Origin: a virus | Direction: 5' to 3' (one strand) | DNA length: 21,595 nt | Virus record (IMG/VR): IMGVR_UViG_3300020222_001218 | Span: 1 to 21,595 of that record | In this document: one piece after another, positions 17,608 to 21,369 of the stretch | Numbering within the stretch: position 1 is the stretch's first letter | How the letters are laid out: the number at the start of each line of letters is the position of its first letter | Program-made: the position numbers and the translations under genes | Notes under the pieces: model-generated | Seen by the model: only the letters and a program-made list of their open reading frames with translations | Database searches by the model: none | Told to the model about the DNA's origin: nothing

Positions 17608-17632
17608 AGATTATTCTAAATTCCCTCTATAT

Positions 17633-17661
17633 ATGATACAAAAAAAGGAGGTTGTTGTCAA
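17633..17661 (-). promoter_or_regulatory. Sigma70 promoter of the glycosylation operon
   Basis: Minus strand TTGACA (17656-17661), 17-base spacer, TATCAT (17633-17638). It is the only promoter I can see for the 13 kb operon. The -35 box lies in the loop and right arm of the preceding terminator. Confidence 0.85.
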
Positions 17662-17666
17662 CCTCC
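17639..17666 (-). terminator. Intrinsic terminator in front of the glycosylation operon
   Basis: Minus strand GGAGGTTG / CAACCTCC with a four-base loop, then T7. It ends transcription of the small-gene unit upstream and overlaps the operon promoter. Confidence 0.88.
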
Positions 17667-17675
17667 CAAGCAATT

Positions 17676-17706
17676 CAGGCTCGCCGCCTGCCCTTTGACC
17701 AGGGCA
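17676..17706 (-). other. Two tandem hairpins downstream of a stop codon
   Basis: Minus strand TGCCCT / AGGGCA with loop GGTCAA (17689-17706), followed directly by CAGGC / GCCTG with loop GGCGA (17676-17690); the two share two bases. They lie between the stop at 17716 and the terminator. They may protect the RNA end or assist termination. Confidence 0.5.
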
Positions 17707-17715
17707 CTTTTTATG

Positions 17716-18774: not shown

Positions 18775-18847
18775 TGCAGGTTGTCGGTTACGATCCGACC
18801 TGTGCCGATTTATGAGATCGGTGCTTTCACCAGATAGCTAAACCTGC
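18775..18847 (-). tRNA. tRNA with CAT anticodon (Met or Ile2)
   Basis: A 73-base cloverleaf: acceptor GCAGGTT / AACCTGC, U8-A9, a D arm of three pairs, anticodon stem CCGAT / ATCGG, loop CTCATAA (anticodon CAT), variable loop of five, T stem GTCGG / CCGAC, discriminator A. The CCA end is not encoded. The T loop is ATCGTAA instead of TTCRANY, so the usual T54-A58 pair is lost. Sequence alone cannot tell elongator Met from Ile2, which is modified to read AUA. Confidence 0.78.
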
Positions 18848-18851
18848 AAGG

Positions 18852-18939
18852 TACGAGTGCCTGGATTCGAACCAGGTCAAAGCCGCTAATCTGGCGGAAA
18901 AGGTTTATAAGACCTCTCTGACTACCAAGTCTCACTCGC
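18852..18939 (-). tRNA. Class II tRNA, Leu-like, with odd anticodon loop
   Basis: An 88-base tRNA: acceptor GCGAGTG / CACTCGT with a G1-U72 pair, as in some Leu tRNAs, discriminator A, T arm CCTGG TTCGAAT CCAGG, and a long variable arm (CCGC / GCGG). That arm limits the type to Leu, Ser or Tyr, and Leu fits best. The anticodon loop reads CTTATAA, giving TAT in the normal place, which fits none of the three. The D region is about four bases shorter than in E. coli Leu tRNAs and position 8 is A. Only four bases separate it from the CAT tRNA. Confidence 0.7.
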
Positions 18940-18953
18940 TTGAATCCAAATTT

Positions 18954-18982
18954 ATAATAGCGGATTTGGAACGCTAGGTCAA
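18954..18982 (-). promoter_or_regulatory. Sigma70 promoter for the Leu-like and CAT tRNAs
   Basis: Minus strand TTGACC (18977-18982), 17-base spacer, TATTAT (18954-18959). Predicted start about eight bases before the tRNA. The -35 overlaps the stop codon of the antitoxin-like gene. Confidence 0.75.
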
Positions 18983-19203
18983 GAACCTTCTTCGTGGTCG
19001 GTGTGTATTCGTATCACATCGTCGTCCACGTTAGATTCTACTGCAAACTTTATGGTTTCGTTGTATGGAACAATCACTGCGTTTCTTTCTCCATCAGTAA
19101 TAATAAATGATTCACCATTTTCAACTCTTTCTATCAGAGTATCAAAATCTTCTTGAAACTCTTCGACTGTAAACTTTTGGAGATTTGAAAGTTCTGGATA
19201 CAT
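18979..19203 (-). CDS. Phd/YefM-type antitoxin-like protein without a toxin partner
   Basis: A 74-residue protein. FTVEEFQEDFDTLIERVENG followed by ESFIITDGERNAVIVPY matches the Phd/YefM pattern: a helix pair leading to a strand that ends in a polar turn and a conserved Val/Pro. Such antitoxins bind DNA as dimers and neutralise a paired toxin with their C-terminal tail; here the tail is acidic (NVDDDVIRIHTDHEEGS). No toxin-like gene lies next to it: tRNAs flank both sides. It may counter a host toxin or just regulate transcription. It is probably transcribed together with tRNA-Pro. No ribosome binding site is evident. Confidence 0.72.
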   Translation of the reverse strand: MYPELSNLQKFTVEEFQEDFDTLIERVENGESFIITDGERNAVIVPYNETIKFAVESNVDDDVIRIHTDHEEGS

Positions 19204-20906: not shown

Positions 20907-21341
20907 TCATTGCAAATGCGATCTGAGTTGCCAGATGAATTTACCGTGTGCTTCCATTAAATCTTGAACTAAATTAGAAGTTGCATATTGTTTTTGAGAT
21001 TCGGATTCTTCCGAAATCTCTTGCATCATTTCACAAAACTTTGTGTTATTATCTAGAAGTTCTTGTAACATTTCTTTTGCTGCTGGCGAACTTGATGTAC
21101 CTTCAATTTGAGTTACTTCAAGTATTCTAGAAAGAGAACTCAAAGGTTTTATGTTCAAATAACGCATATGTTCTGAAAGACGATCAATCTCTTCAAACAT
21201 AGTTTCATACTGACCACCAAAGAGTTGATGAAGTTGGGTGAAATCTTCACCAACAACATTCCAATGAAATGCCCAAGTTTTATGGAATAAAACAAAAAGC
21301 GATGACTGAGCATCACTTAGTAGTTTATAAAGTCTTTCCAT
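20907..21341 (-). CDS. Dps-like ferritin-family protein
   Basis: A 144-residue four-helix protein with the Dps signature: KTWAFHWNVVGEDFTQLHQL at about residues 22-41, followed by YETMFEEIDRLSEHMR. Dps proteins form dodecamers that store iron, consume peroxide and may bind DNA. Of the ferroxidase ligands, both His (FHW and LH), the Asp at +15 and the Glu at +19 are present, but the acid at +4 after the second His is Gly. There is no basic N-terminal tail, so DNA binding is doubtful. I start at ATG 21341, with AAAGAG four bases upstream; a TTG at 21368 is rejected. With peroxiredoxin and Hli it suggests a phage-borne stress kit. Confidence 0.85.
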   Translation of the reverse strand: MERLYKLLSDAQSSLFVLFHKTWAFHWNVVGEDFTQLHQLFGGQYETMFEEIDRLSEHMRYLNIKPLSSLSRILEVTQIEGTSSSPAAKEMLQELLDNNTKFCEMMQEISEESESQKQYATSNLVQDLMEAHGKFIWQLRSHLQ

Positions 21342-21369
21342 TATACTCTTTTTACTTTTATTTATCAAG

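Follow-up and report, generated by a model that had tools for sequence, protein, structure and literature searches.

Long variable arms are taken, outside nematodes, as a mark of Leu, Ser, Tyr or Sec tRNAs. The nearest analogue in the literature of the phage tRNA described here is the nematode nev-tRNA-Ile(UAU), likewise a class II tRNA with a long variable (V) arm and the anticodon UAU that falls outside the Leu/Ser/Tyr set, as stated in the parts of PMC4300185 and PMC4033280 that deal with it. According to the same parts, the nev-tRNAs come from nuclear genes of eukaryotes, are expressed at a low level, accept Leu in vitro and occur alongside an abundant normal tRNA-Ile(UAU), whereas the family of this study consists of phage genes with a short D arm or a canonical body and a conserved V loop. 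Unusual tRNAs with a non-Ser anticodon, often UAU, are also known from metagenomes as allo-tRNAs, and UAU is among the commonest anticodons of the 8/4 allo-tRNAs (both in the relevant sections of PMC7609411). Allo-tRNAs show an 8/4 or 9/3 arrangement and Ser identity, while the phage family is 7/5 with A73, although it may overlap with the metagenomic UAU group of allo-tRNAs. The class I tRNA-Ile(UAU) of the cyanophages S-SM2 and S-PM2 shares with the phage family the anticodon loop CTTATAA, A73, G1·U72 and the same slot before a CAU tRNA, but has no V arm, an ordinary D arm and a length of 74–75 nt.

The tRNA-Ile(UAU) of Mycoplasma mobile belongs to class I. As a U34 isoleucine tRNA that serves AUA without lysidine it resembles the phage family, but it is cellular and works with an adapted isoleucyl-tRNA synthetase (IleRS) and ribosome, and acceptance of U34 may require changes in bacterial IleRS, as given in the pertinent part of PMC4014445. 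A PMC literature search resulted in no description of a class II tRNA-Ile or a CAGAUUA V loop in phages or bacteria, and the literature on UAU and IleRS consisted of AUA-decoding work, none of it about phages judging by the titles.

A class II tRNA with the anticodon UAU

The window, i.e., the whole stretch of DNA analysed, is a 21.6-kb virus record whose closest annotated DNA was found in Synechococcus phages. The original prediction had described at 18852–18939 a class II tRNA with a long variable arm, TAT anticodon, short D arm, A73 and G1·U72. All of these features were confirmed by sequence, ARAGORN and fold, and the combination of class II body, UAU and short D arm indeed fits no standard tRNA class; the location was retained, but the gene lies on the minus strand, where ARAGORN called a tRNA-Ile with anticodon TAT at 18850–18939. 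The following features were assigned.

18852–18939, minus strand: class II tRNA, anticodon UAU (phage long-armed tRNA(UAU), short-D type); ARAGORN, fold, family alignment and covariation
18933–18939, minus strand: acceptor stem, 5' strand, pairing with 18853–18859, G1·U72; fold, double changes in 6/7 pairs
18853–18859, minus strand: acceptor stem, 3' strand; sequence and fold
18920–18931, minus strand: D arm with a stem of 4 bp and the 4-nt loop UGGU; fold, 3/4 pairs with double changes, loop variants exist
18898–18918, minus strand: anticodon arm with a stem of 7 bp; fold, 5/7 pairs with double changes
18907–18909, minus strand: anticodon UAU; sequence and ARAGORN, TAT in 154/154 distinct family members
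18883–18897, minus strand: variable arm with a stem of 4 bp and the loop CAGAUUA at 18887–18893; fold and covariation
18860–18876, minus strand: T arm with a stem of 5 bp; fold, the 8/4 arrangement pairing in just 2/55 sequences

The tRNA has a length of 88 nt, with the acceptor strands GCGAGTG/CACTCGT, the discriminator A73 at position 18852 and an only incompletely encoded CCA. Between the acceptor and anticodon stems there are just A8, the 12-nt D arm (GACT-TGGT-AGTC) and A26. The anticodon loop reads CTTATAA (18905–18911), and the V arm (CCGC-CAGATTA-GCGG) is followed by a 6-nt linker. Minimum-free-energy folding led to a five-arm cloverleaf of the same form as read from the sequence (−31.2 kcal/mol, z −3.07), and 2 of 200 shuffles folded as well as the tRNA itself. 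Covariance-model scoring, which had been proposed as a check, gave tRNA-Sec (RF01852) as the best Rfam match, with 31.2 bits under a gathering score of 47; the general tRNA model scored lower. Bacterial tRNA-Sec shares the 4-nt D loop and the long V arm, but it has a UCA anticodon, whereas the phage tRNA has UAU, A73 and an acceptor stem of 7 bp.

Members and distribution of the family

The window tRNA has a counterpart of 95.5% identity in phage S-SRM01, in a stretch without annotation, and further matches were obtained in S-SKS1 and Sinorhizobium phage Phosso. With a pattern combining D arm, TTATA and GATTAG, the same gene was detected in at least 119 IMG/VR stretches, which together with the references comprised 109 distinct 100-nt sequences. 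Relaxing the pattern in the collected loci showed which parts are kept. Without the V loop, GATTAG was still present in 127 of the 132 matches listed, the other five having GATCAG (three) or running into another tRNA (two); without the D arm, there were among the matches listed 87 members with other D arms, many of them fully canonical. An anticodon-blind scan gave at least 119 rows, and in all loci collected up to then TAT was present in 176/176 of the matches listed; three pattern scans for the short-D type with a non-A35, non-U36 or non-U34 anticodon returned no sequence each. A normal TAA loop in related phages, which the original prediction had named as an observation that would speak against it, was not encountered, every member found having TAT.

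After deduplication, the family set consisted of 154 distinct sequences at 228 places. Besides the uniform TAT, 152 of the 154 have A37 and 152 have A73, with G37 and C73 in two members each, and CCA is encoded in 108/154. The V loop C[AC]GATTA occurs in 152/154 of these class II TAT tRNAs, most of which were fetched by patterns requiring it; on the same contigs it occurs in 0/346 other class II tRNAs and 0/1540 class I tRNAs. In the two alignments given below, CAGATTA was present in 48/55 short-D and 45/47 canonical-D rows, figures that are not independent evidence since many rows were fetched via GATTAG. Among the phages found by BLAST, ENFP1 (CAGATGG) and 3-521 (CGGACAG) were exceptions, and S-SKS1 and S-CRM01 have CCGATTA.

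Some irregular copies were observed too. At L145:4419–4444 (plus strand) and L147:625–650 (minus strand) the class II gene passes from the anticodon stem directly into a different tRNA, as would result from recombination or a deletion. In S-CRM01, an apparent 3' half of a second copy lies at about 145681–145736 (L013 about 1490–1545), immediately following the intact gene for the class II UAU tRNA; it has a V arm with GCCAGATTAGCG, and ARAGORN calls neither a D arm nor an anticodon.

The 11 named carriers are phages of Synechococcus (S-SRM01, S-SKS1, S-CRM01, DSL-LC02 and SynMITS9220M01), Sinorhizobium (Phosso), Lactobacillus (LpeD, Lpa804, ENFP1 and 3-521) and Aeromonas (phage 1233). Annotation often overlooks the gene, no tRNA being annotated at this site in 7/11 of these phages. 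A search of a cellular genome collection with the exact short-D pattern gave six contig matches, of which two were real, both in Nostoc, and four contained no tRNA. Within a sample of 386 cyanobacterial genomes, the two pattern matches were the Nostoc used as centre and a match judged by eye to be due to chance, so that no further real case was obtained in this sample; the plasmids scanned revealed no match. The Nostoc copies (L138:1249–1336 and L140:3064–3151) represent the same short-D tRNA in two genomes, and both contigs carry an HNH endonuclease ORF near the tRNA and no clear phage structural gene.

Covariation and two tRNA architectures

For the short-D type, 55 diverse sequences were aligned out of 91 distinct ones passing the filter. 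In this alignment, 99.5% of the cells were paired compared with 77.9% in shuffles, and double changes were detected in 20/28 pairs, with 278 double-change cells compared with 64.8 ± 6.1 in shuffles. Sliding the structure by 1–3 columns reduced pairing to 39–46%. The pairs by which the anticodon stem is extended to 7 bp were mostly G·U, G-C or A-U; the Nostoc copy has one double change among them, from A-U to C-G. The four differences between the window tRNA and S-SRM01 form two compensated base pairs in this very stem. The fold of the window tRNA is beyond chance and under selection, and its short D arm goes together with a 7-bp anticodon stem and not with damage.

The canonical-D alignment consisted of 47 sequences, namely 40 chosen from 60 distinct non-short-D members and seven loci of named phages. 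Here, 97.9% of the cells were paired, with double changes in 21/24 pairs, including 4/4 in the V arm. Thus, both alignments revealed two tRNA architectures with a common UAU anticodon and V loop. The ancestry of the canonical-D bodies, assessed by the best BLAST half, gave a noisy signal. In 23 of the 47 canonical-D sequences, e.g., at L184:2609–2699, a C×C mismatch tops the anticodon stem, leaving a stem of 4 bp; a 4-bp anticodon stem has been linked to altered wobble in a 2026 paper (PMC13092985). Two further arrangements were considered for the short-D type. An extra helix of the D arm/anticodon stem with the 3' linker (columns 19–24 with 59–64) was 90.9% paired, little more than the 89.5% in shuffles, and was left out of the model; the 8/4 fold of allo-tRNAs was dismissed as positions 8 and 81 pair in 2/55 sequences only, the 7/5 form being fully paired.

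Genomic slot and neighbouring genes

Around the tRNA, the following neighbours were identified in the window.

18775–18847, minus strand: tRNA with anticodon CAU (called tRNA-Met), conserved downstream neighbour in the slot; ARAGORN and Rfam
18954–18982, minus strand: putative sigma-70-like promoter TTGACC-17-TATTAT, just upstream of the class II UAU tRNA; consensus match only
18979–19203, minus strand: Phd-like antitoxin ORF, upstream neighbour in the slot; phrog_375 with E 2.4e-12, PF02604 with 25.6 bits under the cut-off of 29.8

Three promoter-like sites were found around the tRNA, compared with 1.1 expected by chance. Elsewhere in the window, ARAGORN reported a tRNA-Phe (17617–17709, minus strand, 93 nt, gaa), for which Rfam gives no match up to E 1 and which is probably spurious, and an ORF at 20907–21368 (minus strand) matches ferritin/Dps (PF00210, 77.9 bits), its PHROGs family being named DNA binding protein.

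The CAU tRNA is the same neighbour in S-SM2, RN05-S, S-SKS1 and DSL-LC02. In cyanophages, the slot before it is occupied by a class I tRNA-Ile(UAU) in S-SM2, RN05-S, S-B05, S-B43, S-H68, S-PM2 and DSL-LC03 and by a class II tRNA in the window and S-SKS1 (short-D) and in DSL-LC02 (canonical-D), and it is empty in Bellamy. In S-SRM01, the class II UAU tRNA lies at another place and is followed after about 460 bases by a CAU tRNA. Reading of six phage genomes in 20-kb pieces revealed exactly one UAU tRNA per genome, of class II in S-SRM01, S-SKS1, DSL-LC02 and S-CRM01 and of class I in S-SM2 and S-PM2. One type does not replace the other throughout, though, since both occur together on 9/201 contigs, once only three bases apart (L099).

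Homologs of the Phd-like antitoxin were located at most 250 nt upstream in 73 of the 207 family loci having enough upstream sequence, namely in 68/145 short-D and 5/62 canonical-D loci. The ORF is likewise found before class I UAU genes in 6/7 loci (L006, L007, L008, L009, L012 and L016, not L010) and before the lone Met tRNA of Bellamy, whose slot has no UAU tRNA. It therefore marks the slot and not the class II tRNA.

Meaning of AUA in the carrier phages

At AUA sites of four class II carriers, the aligned residues of other phages were Ile in 39–45%, Val in 18–24% and Leu in 12–15%, and two class I carriers gave Ile in 40–48%, Val in 20–21% and Leu in 14–16%. AUA codons at columns invariant in other phages faced Ile 53, Val 10 and Leu 7 times in class II carriers and Ile 23 and Leu 3 times in class I carriers, the Ile:Leu ratio being indistinguishable between the two (Fisher p = 1.0). 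The leucine codons CUA and UUA, in contrast, aligned with Leu at 56–73%. The IMG/VR loci gave a similar picture for 2035 AUA sites (Ile 40.2%, Val 19.3%, Leu 14.0%), and their AUU codons gave Ile 54.3%, Val 18.5% and Leu 10.4%; Leu is slightly commoner opposite AUA than opposite AUU, with a similar tilt in class I carriers. These counts indicate that carrier phages write AUA as isoleucine. As the host tRNA-Ile2 alone could yield the pattern, the test reflects what the proteome tolerates and not the amino acid on this tRNA: read from aligned codons, it argues against wholesale insertion of Leu and falls short of proof of charging with Ile.

Identity and charging

According to the identity lists of PMC9976931, the strong determinants of Ile are the discriminator, the anticodon and t6A37, while those of Leu in E. 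coli are A73, A15-U48, G18G19 and A20a, with A14 listed for Leu too; in the same account, E. coli LeuRS is independent of the anticodon and the V-arm sequence is no part of Leu identity. The short-D body carries the strong Ile determinants in its sequence and cannot accommodate the full Leu list, as its 4-nt D loop NGGN, mostly with A8, has no place for A14, A15 and A20a; canonical-D members possess A14. Among the traits of an AUA-reading tRNA-Ile, the UAU anticodon with A37, A73 and the use of AUA as isoleucine in carrier genomes were present, but a class I body with a short variable loop was not, the stem of the V arm covarying. As to tRNA-Leu, there is no NAA or NAG anticodon, the core A14, A15-U48 and A20a is absent from the short-D type, and A73 is present but nonspecific.

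G1·U72, which together with A73 had been read as pointing to Leu, turned out not to be Leu-specific, being present in 256/1795 other tRNAs on the same contigs and in 9/12 class I tRNA-Ile(UAU); as a mark of isotype it was ruled out. By tRNA, it was counted in 112/152 class II UAU, 9/12 class I UAU, 60/103 UAA, 7/160 CAU and 0/91 UGG genes.

We regard it as probable that the family represents AUA-reading isoleucine tRNAs, encoded by phages on an unusual class II scaffold. The tRNA would be transcribed during infection, would gain CCA where this is not encoded, as in the window, and would be charged with isoleucine by the host IleRS, supplying AUA decoding independent of the lysidine-modified tRNA-Ile2 of the host. 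The enzyme presumably comes from the host, since 20 records of carriers or related phages contain no class Ia synthetase that exceeds the Pfam cut-off; a phage-encoded synthetase was considered and discarded, PF00133 matching in 1/20 records only (Phosso) and below the cut-off. Some host factor shared by distant bacteria may recognize the V-arm loop, which in the simplest view would mark a U34 isoleucine tRNA for identity or quality control. Against this account count the conserved V loop, which an Ile tRNA as such does not need, the E. coli-type minor determinants, e.g., C4-G69 and C29-G41, which are not conserved in the short-D alignment, the adaptation that IleRS may need, the two members each with C73 and G37, the contigs with both types of UAU tRNA (9/201) and the slight excess of Leu opposite AUA over AUU on the virus loci.

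The long V arm and A73 would also suit a Leu-charged tRNA inserting Leu at AUA, as had been suggested originally, i.e., a phage counterpart of the nematode nev-tRNA-Ile(UAU), a class II tRNA with UAU reported as Leu-charged in vitro in the relevant part of PMC4300185; the anticodon independence of E. coli LeuRS in the account of PMC9976931 points the same way. We consider this quite improbable, as AUA columns in carriers are isoleucine columns with Ile:Val:Leu proportions as in class I UAU carriers, the short-D members have no positions for A14, A15 and A20a, and the V loop belongs to the best conserved portions of the tRNA although it is unused in E. coli Leu identity as listed in PMC9976931; moreover, a widespread conserved gene mistranslating the AUA codons of its own phage would be costly. 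Still further from the data is a decaying or misfolded Leu or Ser tRNA gene private to the window contig. Apart from a best score that does not come from the Rfam tRNA model, this idea of decay, raised in the original prediction, is refuted by the compensated changes (all four differences from S-SRM01 among them), the covarying stems, the invariant anticodon and the wide distribution across many phages, and hardly any weight is left to it.

Alternatively, the gene product might be a tRNA-shaped decoy, substitute or regulator that counters a toxin or an anticodon nuclease of the host, with the V loop as bait and AUA decoding not its main job. An extra hairpin loop conserved across phages of distant hosts, the Phd-like antitoxin ORF directly upstream in 73/207 loci and the second, class I UAU tRNA on 9/201 contigs would fit such a role, but conservation of the anticodon, of A37 and of A73 and a CCA encoded in many members suit translation, and the antitoxin ORF goes with the slot, as seen from class I UAU loci (6/7) and the lone Met tRNA of Bellamy; we hold this to be unlikely. 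Returning to the isoleucine tRNA, a tentative extension, to which we likewise give only a small chance, is that the V-arm hairpin acts as a portable second recognition loop on at least two tRNA bodies, always together with UAU, by which a shared host enzyme, IleRS in the simplest case, is brought to accept a U34 tRNA rejected in its absence. The central triplet of CAGAUUA is GAU, and in a post hoc comparison the V loop matches the anticodon loop CUGAUAA of tRNA-Ile(GAU) in 5/7 bases; by this likeness, the V loop may imitate the standard isoleucine anticodon loop. If true, one loop would serve the synthetase, a host enzyme common to cyanobacteria, rhizobia, lactobacilli and Aeromonas, and the other the ribosome.

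Altogether, a common viral family with a V arm, an isoleucine-box anticodon, two architectures and a near-invariant V loop breaks, in the bacterial world, the rule that links long variable arms to a few tRNA kinds, and it raises the question of which enzyme reads the V loop. It offers a natural example in which the decoding of AUA by U34 can be tested, tRNA identity having possibly been shifted onto a new arm, and the class II UAU tRNA may also provide an orthogonal scaffold.
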